A program made the position numbers and the translations under genes. Below, piece after piece: positions 619 to 33,978 of a stretch of DNA of 36,561 nt. The stretch's first letter is position 1; every line of letters starts with the position of its first letter. Under the pieces are notes generated by a model. It searched no databases. It was not told where the DNA came from and was given only the letters and a program-made list of their open reading frames with translations. The stretch lies in contig SKNY01000117.1 in assembly GCA_007123105.1 (NCBI GenBank), forward strand, positions 1-36,561, in the 5' to 3' direction. This DNA comes from Salinarchaeum sp. (GTDB lineage: Archaea; Halobacteriota; Halobacteria; Halobacteriales; SKNY01).

Positions 619-2685
619 GTGACAGCAGACGATGCCAACCCTCATTCTGGGCGCCAGCGTGATCGGAGCGCGCCGACGCTGACGCGCCGACCGTTCCTCT
701 CCGCGGTCGGAATCCTCGGGTGTTCGACAACAGTGACAAAGGCGACCACGGGAGCCCCGAGTGCAGGCTCATGGGACCCGGTGGATGACCCGTATTACGC
801 AAGTCTTGTGGATGAATTCCAAGGGCTCGGTCTTCCCCCCGGGGAGTTCGTGTACGCGGACACCGAAGCGGAGACACTCGCTGCGTACGGCCATCACGGC
901 GCGGGGGCTATCGAACCACTGGGGATCGGCGACGATCTTCCGTTTTCCCAAGCGATCAGGATTACCGTGCCGACTACCGTACGAAATCCCTGGGATGCCC
1001 TCCTCAAGGGAACCGTAAGGCATCGGTCCGTGGCCGCAGGCGACGTGCTCCTCGGGATCGTCTACCTACGGGATGGAGCCCCGGATGACGGAACCGTCCC
1101 GGTCGTCAGATATGCGGCCAAGGTTCAGGACCGGGAGGAGACGAACCTGGTCCAAAACGCAACCCAACCGAGTCTGAGCGGCACCTGGGAACGGTACAAT
1201 TTCCGGATTCGAATGGACGAACCCGCGGCTGCTGGGTCGTGGTGGACCGAACTGTTCCTTGGATTTGGTGAACAGACGGTCGATGTGGGCGGTCTCGCCC
1301 TCGTTCACTTCGGTGATGGCGTATCCCTGGGAGATCTACCCACCTGGACACAAGAGTACGACTATCCGGGACGGAACGCGGATGCTGCCTGGCGCGATAC
1401 CGCGCGTAGACGCATCGAGCAGTACAGAATGGCGCCACTGACGGTCACCGTGCGCGACGGTCGGGGGAATCCGATCGAAGGGGCGACCGTCGATGTCACG
1501 ATGCAAGCGCATGCCTTCGGCTTCGGAAGCGCCGTCGCTGCGCCACGCATCGTCGGTGGCGGGACTGACAACGAACGGTACCGGGAAACGTTTCTCGAGA
1601 ACTTCAACAAGGCGGTGACCGAGAACGTGCTGAAATACGGAGCCTGGAGCGGACAATGGGGTCCGGCGTACTCGGCCGAGATCGCCGACGAAACCGTCGA
1701 CTGGTTGGTCGGGCACGACATCCCGATTCGAGGACATCCGCTCGTGTGGGCCACTTACGAACGCATGGGAGTCGATCCGACCAGCCCGGAAGCGGCAATC
1801 CGGGCGACGATCCGCGACCGCATCGAGGAACGAGCGACCGCGATGCGGGGGCGGCTCGACGAGTGGGACATGCACAACCATCCCATCATGTTCCCCGAGA
1901 TATGGGAGGACCTCGGCAAGGAACTCATGCTCGAGTGGTGGGAGACAGCCAACGAAGCCGATCCGGAGGCCGTGATGTACATCAATGAAGACGACATCCT
2001 GTCCGGAGGTGGTCGACTCAAGGAACCGTATTACGACCTCATCGAGTGGTTGGTCTCCCAGGAAGCCGACGTCGAAGGGATCGGCTTTATGGGCCACTTT
2101 GCGCTCGAAGACGTACGCTCACCAACCACGTTGCTCGAGGTCTTTGACAAATTCACTGCGTTCGATCTGCCACTTCAAATTACCGAATTCGACATATCCA
2201 TCTCGGATCCCGATGATGAAGAACAAGTTGCGGCCAGAGCTGACTTTCTCGCGGACGTATACACCGCCGCGTTCAGCCACCCCGCCGTCGAGGGAGTCCT
2301 GGCCTGGGGATTCTGGGCCGACGCCCACTGGCGACCCGACAGCGCCTACTACGGTAGCGATTGGACACTCCGCCCCCACGGCAAACGATACCGAGAGCTC
2401 GTTTTCGAGGAATGGTGGACGGACGAGTCCGGCACGACGGATACTGACGGACAGTTCGAACTTCACGGATTCAAAGGCATCTACGAGATCGCCGCGAGCG
2501 CTGCCAGCGAGTCGGAGACAGCCAAAGTCCAGCTGGGCGATGCGGGCCACCACGTCGAAATCACCCTAGCCGGGGTGGAGAACGACGATGGCCAACCCGG
2601 GTTTGGTCCGGTGGCGACGGCCGGTGGCATGCTCGGCGTAATCAAGTTCCTACTTCATCGATACGATCGGACCGGCGACGATTGA
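619..2685 (+). CDS. Secreted lipoprotein with GH10 (endo-beta-1,4-xylanase-like) domain
   Basis: GTG start; twin-arginine/lipobox-like N-terminus LTRRPFLSAVGILGCS; GH10-like blocks FNKAVTENVLKYGAWSG, RGHPLVWA, EADPEAVMYINEDDI, IGFMGHF, LPLQITEFDIS, GVLAWGFWADAHWRP. Confidence 0.8.
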   Translation: MTADDANPHSGRQRDRSAPTLTRRPFLSAVGILGCSTTVTKATTGAPSAGSWDPVDDPYYASLVDEFQGLGLPPGEFVYADTEAETLAAYGHHGAGAIEPLGIGDDLPFSQAIRITVPTTVRNPWDALLKGTVRHRSVAAGDVLLGIVYLRDGAPDDGTVPVVRYAAKVQDREETNLVQNATQPSLSGTWERYNFRIRMDEPAAAGSWWTELFLGFGEQTVDVGGLALVHFGDGVSLGDLPTWTQEYDYPGRNADAAWRDTARRRIEQYRMAPLTVTVRDGRGNPIEGATVDVTMQAHAFGFGSAVAAPRIVGGGTDNERYRETFLENFNKAVTENVLKYGAWSGQWGPAYSAEIADETVDWLVGHDIPIRGHPLVWATYERMGVDPTSPEAAIRATIRDRIEERATAMRGRLDEWDMHNHPIMFPEIWEDLGKELMLEWWETANEADPEAVMYINEDDILSGGGRLKEPYYDLIEWLVSQEADVEGIGFMGHFALEDVRSPTTLLEVFDKFTAFDLPLQITEFDISISDPDDEEQVAARADFLADVYTAAFSHPAVEGVLAWGFWADAHWRPDSAYYGSDWTLRPHGKRYRELVFEEWWTDESGTTDTDGQFELHGFKGIYEIAASAASESETAKVQLGDAGHHVEITLAGVENDDGQPGFGPVATAGGMLGVIKFLLHRYDRTGDD

Positions 2686-3344
2686 CCCTACCGGCAACGG
2701 AGTGGCCACAACAGCCGACCGGATCGACCAACAATGCCACCCCCGCCTCGAGCTGTGCAATCTCAACGACCGGCGGCAGGTCCGTCAGTGAGATCTACCC
2801 GGCCTGCGTTCCAAGTTCTCCGTTGACAACGCGGTCCGCCAGGTACCAGAGATCCCGATCGCGGGTCGATCACGGATCCGATCCCACCGATGGTGAACGC
2901 CGTCTGCCAACCATCGGCTAGCCCGGAGCATCGAACGAGAACCGAGAATCCAGGAGGCGAGGACATGGAGGACGTGACAATATCACCGGCCATCGGTGCG
3001 TGACCGCATGCGTAGGGCAGGCTGCTTTGGAAGAAACCCGATGAGAATCGAGCCAAATATTCCTGGGAGAACCCTGGTGGTCCGCAGCTCGTGATCATAG
3101 ACGGGCCAACAGGGGACGTTCACCAACTCGACAGGAGTGCCCTTGCGATTGTAGAGGTGGCAAGTGGCATTCAACCGCTGACGAAACGAGATACCAGATA
3201 TCACGGATCTCGCAAGGTACCAAGCAACATTCTGGCCACGGGCGGCGAGTGCATCCGTCGGCCATGAGCGCTTCCCGGGATCTTGGTTGGCCGGGCGGTG
3301 GCCCCGGGTGAAGACATTTGCCGACCGGTGTCGATGCCAGTGCT

Positions 3345-4373
3345 ATGCAGCCCAAGCACGGCATCGTTCACGCCGGGGCCGGCCAGTTCAACGGCTGGCC
3401 GGCGAACCACGGCATGTGGGCGTGGGACGAAGAGGTCCTGGTCAGGTTCACGAACGGGTACTTCCGGTCGGATGCGGGCTTTCACGACATCGATCCCCGT
3501 CGGTCCCGCGGGAGCCTGTACGCCCGGAGCTTCGACGGGGGCAAATCTTGGGCGATTGAACACGCCGGAGATCCGTTCGCCCGTGAGACGACACCCGAAC
3601 CGTCGGCCGGCGGAATCGATTTTACACATCCTGATTTCGCGATGCGAATCCGGAACGGACAGTGGTGTGTCTCGACCGACCGCGGACGCGAGTGGAGTCC
3701 CCGCTACGAGTTGCCGGACTTTGGAACCGGTGAGCAGCTGACTGCCCGAACGGACTACATCGTGAAGGACGCGGCGACGTGTCTGATCTTTCTCTCGATC
3801 GAGGAACCCGAACGCGAAACCGACGAGGAGATTGACCGGTCGCTGTGCGCGGCCATCGTCGATGGCGGTGCGGCCGTCGAGTTCCGGGGCTGGATCACCG
3901 AAGATCCCGACCAGCGCTCGATCATGCCAGCGACGACACAACTGGCCGACGGTACGCTGTTGACCATCATCCGCCAAACCGATTTTCACGGCGCATTCGA
4001 CGAGTACGATAAACGCGAGAACTACCTCGAGGCGTTCCGATCGACCGATGACGGCCGAACATGGACCTCCGTGGGCCGCATCGCCGACACCCATAATCCC
4101 GCTGCCGCCGTCACCCTCGGAGACGATAGCGTCGTCGTTGCCTACGGCTATCGCACCGAGCCGTACGGCATCCGGGGACGGATCACTACAGATTGCGGCG
4201 AGACGTGGAGCGAGGAGTTCGTGTTACGCGATGACGGTCGGAGCGCCGATCTCGGGTATCCACGAATGGTGGCGCGCCCGGACGGGACCCTCCTGGTTGT
4301 GTATTACTTTACCACGGTCGAACGCAAGGAACAACACATCGCCGCGACGATCTTCGATCCGGCGACGACCTGA
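3345..4373 (+). CDS. Sialidase/BNR-repeat-like protein (exo-alpha-sialidase superfamily)
   Basis: Asp-box-like repeats (SFDGGKSWAIE, STDRGREWSPRY, STDDGRTWTSVG, TTDCGETWSEE) and C-terminal GYPRMVARPDGTLLVVYY; the ORF opens with TTG at 3318, first ATG at 3345. Confidence 0.75.
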   Translation: MQPKHGIVHAGAGQFNGWPANHGMWAWDEEVLVRFTNGYFRSDAGFHDIDPRRSRGSLYARSFDGGKSWAIEHAGDPFARETTPEPSAGGIDFTHPDFAMRIRNGQWCVSTDRGREWSPRYELPDFGTGEQLTARTDYIVKDAATCLIFLSIEEPERETDEEIDRSLCAAIVDGGAAVEFRGWITEDPDQRSIMPATTQLADGTLLTIIRQTDFHGAFDEYDKRENYLEAFRSTDDGRTWTSVGRIADTHNPAAAVTLGDDSVVVAYGYRTEPYGIRGRITTDCGETWSEEFVLRDDGRSADLGYPRMVARPDGTLLVVYYFTTVERKEQHIAATIFDPATT

Positions 4374-22949: not shown

Positions 22950-24230
22950 ATGGCCGCGACGAATGAGAAGCCCCGCGTGATCGCCACGACCGACGGCGAG
23001 ATCGACGACCGCTGTTCGATGATCCGTTTTCTCTTATACGCCAACGAATGGGACATCGAGGGACTGATCTACTCGAGTTCGCGCTTTCACTGGCAGGGCC
23101 ACAACTGGGCGGGTGAAACCTGGATCGAAGACCAAATCGACCGATACGAACGAGTCGTCGACCGGCTCCAAGCACACGATCCCGACTACCCCGATCCCGA
23201 CGAGCTCCGCGACCTCGTTGCTGTGGGTAACGTGGCAGACGTCGGTGAGATGGACGAGGAGACACCGGGATCAAACCAAATCGTCGACGTGCTGCTCGAC
23301 GACCGGCCTGGACCGGTGTACCTGCAGGTGTGGGGCGGGACCAACACGGTCGCCCGGGCATTACGAACCATCGAGGAACAGCATCCGGATCGGATGGCCG
23401 AGGTCGCCGAGAAGGCTATCGTCTACATTATTCTCAACCAGGATCGCACCTTGCGGGAGTACATCCAGCCGAACTGGCCGGAGCTCCAGGTGCTCAACAG
23501 CTTCCGGCAGTTTGCCGTCTTCGCCTACCACTGGGACGAACTCATCCCGGATCCGGATATTCGGGCGTATCTCGGAGACGAGTGGATGCGCACACACATC
23601 ATCGACGATCACGGTCCCCTATGTGGTGCGTATCCGACCGCAGACTGGGACGAACGGTTGTTCGTCTCCGAGGGCGACACGCCCGCGTACCTCCACCAGA
23701 TTCCAGTCGGACTCGGCAGCCTCGAGCATCCGAGCTTCGGTGGATGGGGCGGTCGCTTTCGCCGCGAACCCGGGAGCAAGAACGTCTGGATCGGCGCCAC
23801 CGATGACGGGGATGACTACAAACCGATCTGGCGGTGGATCCCAGATCTCCAGCGGGATTTCGCCGCGCGGGCAGACTGGTGTGTCTCGGATGTCGATGCG
23901 GCGAACCACCCGCCAGCGGTCGTGGTCAACGGTGATGCGGGCCGTGCACCGCTCCGGATCGACGTCGATCCCGGCGCGGTGATTACGGTGGACGGCCGGG
24001 AGAGTACCGATCCTGACGGCGACGAGCTGGCCTTCGAGTGGTGGCACTACCCCGAACCGAGTAGCGGGGGTGGCATGCCACCGACGATCCACCACCCCCA
24101 TCGACCCAGGACGACCGTGACCGTACCGGAAGCGGACGGTCGCGACGACCATCTGATTCTGTCGGTGACCGACGACGGCGAACCGCCGTTGACGCGGTAT
24201 CGGCGGGTCATCCTCGAGGTTGGAAACTGA
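22950..24230 (+). CDS. DUF1593 / nucleoside hydrolase-like protein with C-terminal Ig-like domain
   Basis: PRVIATTDGEIDDRCSMIRFLLYANEWDIEGLIYSSSRFHW, VYLQVWGGTNTVARAL, C-terminal ITVDGRESTDPDGDELAFEWWHYPEP...VSVTDDGEPPLTRYRRV. Confidence 0.8.
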   Translation: MAATNEKPRVIATTDGEIDDRCSMIRFLLYANEWDIEGLIYSSSRFHWQGHNWAGETWIEDQIDRYERVVDRLQAHDPDYPDPDELRDLVAVGNVADVGEMDEETPGSNQIVDVLLDDRPGPVYLQVWGGTNTVARALRTIEEQHPDRMAEVAEKAIVYIILNQDRTLREYIQPNWPELQVLNSFRQFAVFAYHWDELIPDPDIRAYLGDEWMRTHIIDDHGPLCGAYPTADWDERLFVSEGDTPAYLHQIPVGLGSLEHPSFGGWGGRFRREPGSKNVWIGATDDGDDYKPIWRWIPDLQRDFAARADWCVSDVDAANHPPAVVVNGDAGRAPLRIDVDPGAVITVDGRESTDPDGDELAFEWWHYPEPSSGGGMPPTIHHPHRPRTTVTVPEADGRDDHLILSVTDDGEPPLTRYRRVILEVGN

Positions 24231-31540: not shown

Positions 31541-32854
31541 TTACCGGTACGCATCAGCCGGCAGCGTCTGGTCGTCCAGCGTGAGCGGCTCGAGCGATCC
31601 GACCGAACATGCGGGATGCTCCCGGAGCTCCGTCGCGACGGCCTCGGAAACGACGAGCGTGTCCGGATCGAGAGTGTTTCGGATCCGGGCGATGCGGACC
31701 GTCGCAAAGTCGGTCCGTCCGAGCGTCGACGGGATGACCCGCAGCGCCGTCGCGTCGTCCGGGACGACGAATGGAATCTTCGCACGCCCGGGTTCGCCGC
31801 TGGTGGCGATGTTAATGTATGTGTCCGTCATGTCTGTGGCCTCGATCAGCTGGGCGTGGACGAAATCGGCCAGCCCGAGCCCCACGGCGTTACCGTGTGA
31901 GGCGCCGGTTAGCGACCGAGCATAGACCCGGGTAATTTGCGGGTGCTCCGGTTCGGGTTCGCCGTGAAATCGGTAGCGGCCCAGCACATTCGTATCCATA
32001 CACGTCCCCGAGATGTCCTTGCCGATGGCATCGACGATGAGGAGATCGAGATCGTCGACCGGTAACGTCGGGAGCTCGTCGTATGCCATCTCCAGGAGGG
32101 ATGGCTCGCGATCGAGGATCTCCGGGGCGGCCATGCCTTCGATGTGGGTGGCCTGCTTGGCCGCGTCCTCGACGATCGCAATGCCGCCGATGATTGGCGC
32201 TGCCTCGAGCAGCCGTTCGGTCCGGTCGAGCAACACATCCGCGAAATCGCCCGCCAATCCGGCATTGTGAAAGGATTCCGCCCCGCGGTGTTTCCCCAGC
32301 CCGACGACCGCCATCTTACAGAGCCCGCTCTCGACTGGTCCGGTGAAGTCCGTATGGGGCTTGATCCGGTTGATCAGCACGATACCGTCGGCAGCGGTCG
32401 CATCCGCCGCGAGGAACACGGGTCGACCGAGCTCGTCTACGGTGACCGATTCGACTGCCATCGAGGTTCGAATCGGACAGCCGACCGTGTCCTCGGTGAT
32501 GCCGAGAGCGGCCAACGTCTCGCGTTGTCCATCGGCGGTGGCGCCGCCGTGGCTGCCCATTGCTGCCAGTACGAAGGGCTCGTACCCCCGATCGTGGAGT
32601 TCTTTGACGACGGCCGATAAGATGGCCGGCTTGTCGTTGATTCCCCGGCTCCCGGCGGTCAGGCCAATCTCGGCACCCGGTGGGAGCCCGTCCAGATCCA
32701 TGCGGCAGACCGCGGTGCGTGCCGCGGCCGGGACGTCCTCGATCGGGTCAAGCTCGCGATCACGGGTGACGGTGGCGAAGGCGGGATAATCGTCAATCCG
32801 CAGCTCGCTTGCAGTGCGAAGTGATTCGGCGTCCGGAAACGCGAGTGACGTCAT
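31541..32854 (-). CDS. Lactate racemase (LarA)-domain-like / DUF2088 protein
   Basis: GLTAGSRGINDKPAILSAVVKELHDRGYEPFVLAAMGSHGGATADGQ, GIVLINRIKPHTDFTGPVESGLCKMAVVGLGKHRGAESFH. Confidence 0.7.
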   Translation of the reverse strand: MTSLAFPDAESLRTASELRIDDYPAFATVTRDRELDPIEDVPAAARTAVCRMDLDGLPPGAEIGLTAGSRGINDKPAILSAVVKELHDRGYEPFVLAAMGSHGGATADGQRETLAALGITEDTVGCPIRTSMAVESVTVDELGRPVFLAADATAADGIVLINRIKPHTDFTGPVESGLCKMAVVGLGKHRGAESFHNAGLAGDFADVLLDRTERLLEAAPIIGGIAIVEDAAKQATHIEGMAAPEILDREPSLLEMAYDELPTLPVDDLDLLIVDAIGKDISGTCMDTNVLGRYRFHGEPEPEHPQITRVYARSLTGASHGNAVGLGLADFVHAQLIEATDMTDTYINIATSGEPGRAKIPFVVPDDATALRVIPSTLGRTDFATVRIARIRNTLDPDTLVVSEAVATELREHPACSVGSLEPLTLDDQTLPADAYR

Positions 32855-33882
32855 CGGTCCGACCCCCCGCGCCGCACACCCACGAGCCGGGCGGCAACCT
32901 CGACGGCGTCGACCATACTCGTCGCATCCGCGACGCCCTGCCCGGCAATGTCAAAGGCAGTCCCGTGATCCACGCTCGTCCGGACGATCGGCAGGCCGAT
33001 CGTGACGTTCACACCACTGACGGCCTCCCCGGCGGAGAAGCCGAGCATCTTGATCGGAATGTGGCCCTGATCGTGATACATCGATACCACACAGTCGAAC
33101 TCGCCGGCGGCTGCCCGCACGTAGACGGTATCAGGTGAGATCGGACCGACGGCATCGATCTCCGCGTCCCTGACCTGTGCGACGGCCGGGGCAATCTCGT
33201 CGGCATCTTCGGTCCCGAGCAGCCGGTCGTCTCCGGCGTGGGGGTTCAGCCCGGCCACCGCGATCGTCGGTGCGTCGATACCGAGCTCTCGGAGCGCCCC
33301 GTGGGTCACGTGAATCGTCTCGACGACGCGGTCCGTCTCGACGAGTGCACACGCCTCCCGCAATGGGACGTGGGTGCTGACGTGAGTTACCCGCAAGCCG
33401 TGGGCGATCAGCATCATCGAATACCGTTCCGTGTTGGTACGGGCAGCGAGAAGGCCGGTGTGGCCGGCGTGTTCACTGCCGGCCGCACGCGTGGCCTGTT
33501 TGTTGATGGGGGCGGTCACGATCGCGTCGATGGCGCCCTCGAGTGCCAGCTCGATCGCCCGCTCGACGTACGCCAAACTCGCCCGACCGAAGGCAGCGTC
33601 CACCACGCCCCACCGGTGATCCGACACGTTTGCGAGGTCGAGAAGCGGGAGCACCGACCGGTCAACCGCCGTCGCCTCGGCCGGCGTGTCGATCCGCTGC
33701 AGCCCAACGTCGGCCTCGCAGACGTCGATCGCCGCCTCGAGGACGGGCTCGTCTCCGATCACGACCGGCACCACGTGCTGGCGGATGCGCTCGTGTGCCT
33801 GCACGATGACCTCAGGTCCGATCCCGGACGGATCACCCATGGTGATCCCGACGATGACATCCTCCGGGTTCTGGCGGCTCAT
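32851..33882 (-). CDS. 4-hydroxythreonine-4-phosphate dehydrogenase family (PdxA/PdxA2-like)
   Basis: GITMGDPSGIGPEVI, IVTAPINKQATRAAG, GHTGLLAART, GLNPHAGDDRLLGTED, GPISPDTVYVRAAAGEFDCVVSMYHDQGHIPIKMLGF, VNVTIGLPIVRTSVDHGTAFDIAGQGVAD; ATG at 33882. Confidence 0.9.
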   Translation of the reverse strand: MSRQNPEDVIVGITMGDPSGIGPEVIVQAHERIRQHVVPVVIGDEPVLEAAIDVCEADVGLQRIDTPAEATAVDRSVLPLLDLANVSDHRWGVVDAAFGRASLAYVERAIELALEGAIDAIVTAPINKQATRAAGSEHAGHTGLLAARTNTERYSMMLIAHGLRVTHVSTHVPLREACALVETDRVVETIHVTHGALRELGIDAPTIAVAGLNPHAGDDRLLGTEDADEIAPAVAQVRDAEIDAVGPISPDTVYVRAAAGEFDCVVSMYHDQGHIPIKMLGFSAGEAVSGVNVTIGLPIVRTSVDHGTAFDIAGQGVADATSMVDAVEVAARLVGVRRGGSDR

Positions 33883-33978
33883 ACGTGCCGATGGAGGGCA
33901 GACCAATTAATGGTGGTCCGTTCGCTCGCGGTCAAGACTGATCGTCGGGAATCCCCGTGCCAACCGGCACCGCTGACG

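Follow-up and report, generated by a model that had tools for sequence, protein, structure and literature searches.

The gene at positions 619 to 2685 of the window (the whole stretch of 36,561 nucleotides of Salinarchaeum sp. DNA that was analyzed) encodes a predicted exported GH10-fold protein in which a histidine, His421, stands in the column of the catalytic acid/base glutamate. Sequence comparisons indicate that this protein, here termed a His-GH10, represents a real, reproducible variant of GH10. With modest confidence, it is read here as an active xylanase that has exchanged its acid/base residue.

Identification of a GH10-fold protein with histidine in the acid/base column

The following features were assigned, all on the forward strand.

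619..2685, +, open reading frame of 688 aa; exported GH10-fold protein with His at the acid/base position
679..723, +, Tat signal motif TLTRRPFLSAVGILG, about aa 21-35, from sequence
757..1347, +, N-terminal beta-rich domain, aa ~47-243, from AlphaFold2 secondary structure
1510..2346, +, GH10 (beta/alpha)8 catalytic-type domain, aa 298-576, from protein and genome matches to PF00331
1864..1884, +, strand-4 motif WDMHNHP, aa 416-422, from sequence and alignments
1879..1881, +, His421 (codon CAT), acid/base Glu column of GH10 (XynA E182), from structure alignments
1984..1989, +, Asn456-Glu457, at the canonical N-D-Y of strand 5, from alignments and the AlphaFold2 model
2089..2097, +, Met491-Gly492-His493, from the alignment of 112 domains
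2185..2187, +, Glu523 (codon GAA), catalytic nucleophile position (XynA E280), from alignments
2596..2682, +, C-terminal tail with QPGFG, a hydrophobic stretch and Arg, by eye

The open reading frame matched PF00331 with an E value of 3.1e-32 (112.5 bits; curated cut-off, 22.1), and its AlphaFold2 model (mean pLDDT, 93.8; model residue + 46 = protein residue) is a GH10-type (beta/alpha)8 barrel. The best Foldseek matches to the model were all GH10, led by 7d88/7d89 with TM-scores of 0.88 to 0.89 over the target. An RR motif of the same type as that of the window protein is present in other haloarchaeal His-GH10 sequences, and the beta-rich N-terminal domain, which is possibly carbohydrate binding, is conserved across the His clade. 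Profile and PDB sequence searches with this domain returned zero family matches and zero PDB sequence matches, and its assignment to a known CBM was therefore rejected. Judged by eye, the C-terminal tail resembles a haloarchaeal surface anchor of the PGF-CTERM-like kind; an NCBIfam search gave no match to it. Dockerin-like repeats (DFDGDGxVxxxD) were seen by eye at the C termini of several haloarchaeal His-GH10s, namely, L139 (L003), L140, L145, and L063.

In a phmmer search against the PDB, EWDMHNHP paired with WDVNNE of XynA (7d88), and the two Ala columns of 7d89, a deposited E182A/E280A double mutant, coincided exactly with His421 and Glu523. Profile alignments with the solved GH10s 1vbr, 8b73, and 6fhe agreed on both columns. 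In the AlphaFold2 model His421 lies directly after strand 4, Glu457 in strand 5, Met491 and His493 in strand 6, and Glu523 in strand 7. The preliminary description of this DNA had placed a His codon at the acid/base position and a retained nucleophile Glu downstream, and both assignments hold: strand 4 lacks the canonical acid/base Glu of WDxxNE at its end, and the strand-7 nucleophile is present as Glu523, opposite XynA E280. The column inspection that it had proposed, made with PF00331 and the solved structures, found His421 there and no other Glu in the column. An alignment slip hiding a real Glu nearby was ruled out by the solved structures, including the 7d89 double mutant. Because His421 occupies the acid/base column, the product is best classed as a GH10 variant by descent and not as a canonical GH10 by catalytic signature.

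XynA was the best match in both sequence (E = 1.6e-56) and fold (Foldseek TM, 0.88 over the target). It resembles the window protein in the nucleophile column and in an Ig-like N-terminal extension of the barrel but differs in having Glu182 in place of His421, Asp-Tyr in place of Glu457-Asp458, and Gln in place of Met491. Relative to C. fimi Cex (Xyn10A; 2exo, 2his), we take His421 to correspond to E127, Glu457 to D170, Asp458 to Y171, Met491 to Q203, His493 to H205, and Glu523 to E233. On this presumed numbering the equivalents of E43, N44, K47, H80, W84, N126, H205, E233, D235, W273, and W281 are kept in the window protein, while E127 is replaced by His, D170 by Glu, Y171 by Asp, and Q203 by Met.

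Distribution and phylogeny of His-type GH10 domains

Relatives were gathered from 394 genomes of the class and from a scan of 84,980 species, and were recovered from haloarchaea, Lentisphaeria, Planctomycetes, Hydrogenedentota, KSB1, and Bacteroidota. A His at the acid/base column was found in 35 nonredundant GH10 domains, that of the window and 34 others, belonging to haloarchaea, Lentisphaeria, and Planctomycetes; a single-sequence oddity arising by chance or sequencing error was thereby ruled out. Both CAC and CAT occur as the His codon among the His-type relatives (3 of the 35 read-outs in the codon survey landed on another motif, GAG/GAA, and were discounted; the motif codon was also read directly). 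The closest haloarchaeal relatives of the window protein carry EWD(M/V)HNHP, and WDMHNHP recurs in Lentisphaeria, in the soda-lake metagenome-assembled genome sequence L036. WDVINHP was found in the Pirellulaceae sequence L053 and its relative L081, WDTINHI in further genomes of the same class, and WDVVNHP in L111. Some tblastn rows (L022, L060, L033, and others) appeared to have His, Tyr, or Thr at this column, but these were gap slips, as MAFFT alignment gives Glu. One His-GH10, L016 in genome G267, has an in-frame TGA replacing the conserved Trp377 and is either a decaying copy or affected by a sequencing error.

In a tree built with the motif columns masked, the careful version of which was made on a subset, the His-type domains fell into two clades, one of 25 members including the window protein (SH-aLRT, 98) and one of 10 members (SH-aLRT, 91). 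The parsimony minimum for the origin of the His is two changes, and a single clade was not rejected (AU test, p = 0.167). A small branch is made up of the window protein and L003, its sister from genome G324. The sharing of NHP by a clade of homologs had been put forward as support for a defined variant, and these 35 domains in two supported clades provide it. No papers on His-type or acid-less GH10s were found in open-access text.

Substitutions linked to the histidine

Columns were compared across 112 nonredundant domains, 35 His-type and 77 Glu-type. Few of them split the two types, the main ones being 421, 457, and 491. Column 421 is His in 35/35 His-type and 0/77 Glu-type domains, the latter having Glu in all 77. 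At column 457, Glu is present in every His-type domain (35/35) compared with 20/77 of the Glu type, where Asp predominates (56/77), and at column 491, Met occurs in 32/35 and 0/77, respectively, with Gln in 72/77 Glu-type domains. Column 458 is aromatic in 70 of the 77 Glu-type domains and in none of the 35 His-type domains. Gln203 (Cex numbering) contacts the acid/base residue in canonical enzymes. Given the distributions of Glu457 and Met491, the acid/base pocket seems to have been altered as a unit; the coupling of either change to the His is not absolute, since three His-type members keep Gln491 and some Glu-type domains have Glu457.

The remaining active site is preserved in the His clades. 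N420, His493, H373, and Glu523 are each found in 35/35 domains, D525 in 33/35, and W571 in 34/35, so that neither the nucleophile nor the -1 subsite shows the loss that marks the probable GH10 pseudoenzymes described below. Pairs within the His clades gave dN/dS values of about 0.13 to 0.27 and are thus under purifying selection. A separate Lentisphaeria group (L124, L127, L128, and L130 to L138), with WxVxHG or WDVLHA at the motif, has lost the nucleophile, His493, and Trp563, and its members are probably true pseudo-GH10s. This group is likewise without the acid/base residue and occurs in several copies.

Genomic context of His-GH10 genes

A GH67 alpha-glucuronidase was found in 16 of the 17 sampled genomes carrying a His-GH10 compared with 23 of 376 others (Fisher p = 5e-17, with kinship ignored), and in 13 carrier genomes GH67 lies within ~31 kb of the His-GH10. 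At the level of the clade, His-GH10 genes sit in glucuronoxylan loci. The locus in G035 includes UxaC, the D-xylose 1-dehydrogenase Gfo6 (NCBIfam equivalog match, 541 versus 350 bits), GH67, GH3, a polysaccharide deacetylase, and an Opp-type ABC importer plus binding protein. The sole GH10 of this genome, which is 99% complete, is the His protein, and genome searches of G035 and G322 did not find GH5, GH8, GH11, GH30, or GH43.

Many carrier genomes also hold canonical GH10s. In most carriers with one canonical GH10 alongside, that copy is ~320 to 330 aa long, with no room for a signal, and is probably cytoplasmic, whereas the His copy in haloarchaeal genomes with two GH10s has a Tat signal. 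On this basis, several genomes seem to export no GH10 other than the His protein. In G322, the canonical cytoplasmic-type GH10 is broken at C1:1481018-1481638 (L163, L182), with split frames and an in-frame TGA, and the His-GH10 at the same locus is the exported copy. Glucuronoxylan systems of the Geobacillus type consist of an exported GH10, an ABC importer, an intracellular GH10, and GH67. The haloarchaeal loci follow the same gene logic, but with the His variant as their exported GH10. Zones of xylan hydrolysis are produced by strains that share 99% 16S rRNA identity with Halobacterium hubeiense (PMC9726719). The His-GH10 of G357 is identical (100%) to that of Halobacterium sp. CBA1126, and the link from the H. 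hubeiense-type zones to G035 is indirect, running solely through a genus code that G035 shares with G357.

Genome searches found no GH67 in the window's genome (67% complete) or in G324 (complete), and both the window protein and L003 are in surroundings without it; GH5 and canonical GH10 genes are close by L003 in G324. For this reason the connection to xylan applies to the clade and not directly to the window copy, and the branch formed by the window protein and L003 may have a different substrate. Directly downstream of the His-GH10, positions 3318 to 4373 of the window encode a BNR-repeat sialidase-like protein (PF13088), and a Sortilin/BNR protein also occurs near the sister copy, in L139. 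The other neighbors in the window are what we take to be SbcCD-like genes. Farther along the window are a Sde182-type nucleoside-hydrolase-like protein (22950 to 24230; PF07632 and PF21027), of a family described from polysaccharide degraders, and a PdxA-family dehydrogenase (PF04166) beside a DUF362-type protein (31541 to 33906), which possibly act in sugar-acid catabolism and not in pyridoxal synthesis.

Proposed mechanism and alternative explanations

The reading that we favor, if only by a moderate degree of belief, is that of an exported, active xylanase using a retaining two-step mechanism. Glu523 would attack and form the glycosyl-enzyme, as in the usual retaining first step; His421, instead of Glu, would carry the acid/base step; and Glu457 of strand 5 would orient His421 and hold its charge, making a His-Glu dyad. 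We infer xylan hydrolysis, proton transfer by His421, and the partnership of Glu457 from several observations: the His is fixed in 35 domains of archaea and bacteria in two supported clades; the nucleophile and -1 subsite are intact, while the Lentisphaeria pseudo-GH10s lost them; and the linked changes at 457 and 491, the purifying selection, the GH67/xylan loci, and the export of the His copy point the same way. There is precedent for such chemistry: evidence supports a His-plus-carboxylate general acid in GH117, and one has been proposed in GH3 NagZ and in GH156 (PMC11574756). In GH3 NagZ (Asp-His dyad) and the GH117 agarases (His302/Asp320), a His-carboxylate acid replaces Glu/Asp as proposed here (PMC11574756), but these are unrelated families and sites, GH117 is inverting, and the His is not at the strand-4 acid/base position of GH-A. 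The window protein, as a GH10, does not share the fold family of NagZ, GH117, or GH156, and only the chemistry is comparable.

Of the three explanations offered in the preliminary description, an altered mechanism is thus the one that the sequence comparisons favor. The main rival, a binding pseudoenzyme, is less likely and is given a distinctly minor share of our belief. It would be an exported, xylan-binding GH10 barrel, serving as an anchor or targeting module, in which catalysis has stopped and the remaining site residues are kept for binding. The changed acid/base residue, the canonical GH10s also present in many carriers, and the beta-rich N-terminal domain with surface-anchor or dockerin-like tails would all suit such a role. 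However, a noncatalytic binder has no obvious need for a nucleophile and His partner kept in 35/35 domains, both of which the decayed Lentisphaeria group did lose. The coordinated H421/E457/M491 replacement, the constant use of His in 35 members (never Ala, Gln, or Gly), and the one genome with no other GH10 and none of GH5/8/11/30/43 also argue against it.

It is improbable that the enzyme is active with another carboxylate as its acid/base. The third explanation in the preliminary description, an acid supplied by the downstream PEIWEDLG, is unsupported because neither Glu is conserved in the clade, where relatives read QPNIRDRLG or QSNFRDRDGLG. Glu457 is the only clade-wide candidate; it would have to reach in, with His421 only positioning it. 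Its strong enrichment beside the site (the sole carboxylate of which this is true) agrees with such a role, but position 457 lies within strand 5 of the model, and Glu457 is not diagnostic, since the 20 Glu-type proteins that have it carry it alongside a normal acid/base. That the His makes the protein a retaining glycoside phosphorylase or transglycosylase, as might be suggested by GH3 N-acetylglucosaminidases with an acid/base His that were reported as phosphorylases (Macdonald 2015, as cited in PMC11574756), is very unlikely because the protein is exported: the haloarchaeal proteins carry Tat signals and would gain little from extracellular phosphorolysis, in their loci they occur together with an oligomer importer and cytoplasmic-type GH67/GH10, and GH117 and GH156, in which a His is the acid or has been proposed as such, are ordinary hydrolases (PMC11574756).

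Implications for the GH10 family

Xylanase activity is predicted from the acid/base Glu of GH10, which is regarded as invariant, and the replacement of this Glu by His, with linked changes, spans a clade from two domains of life. A broader proposal, which is speculative and which we consider rather unlikely, is that on one or two occasions GH10 exchanged its acid/base Glu for a His-Glu pair, giving an exported class for charged aglycones that feeds GH67; unlike Glu, a His in the neutral or cationic state would not repel the carboxylate of glucuronic-acid-decorated xylan. If true, the swap would be a natural acid/base exchange within clan GH-A, spread between archaea and bacteria. If inactive, the His-GH10s would be a widespread xylan-binding pseudoenzyme. 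If active, they would be a natural case of a retaining glycosidase changing its proton shuttle, and a different enzyme would lie behind many "xylanase" annotations.
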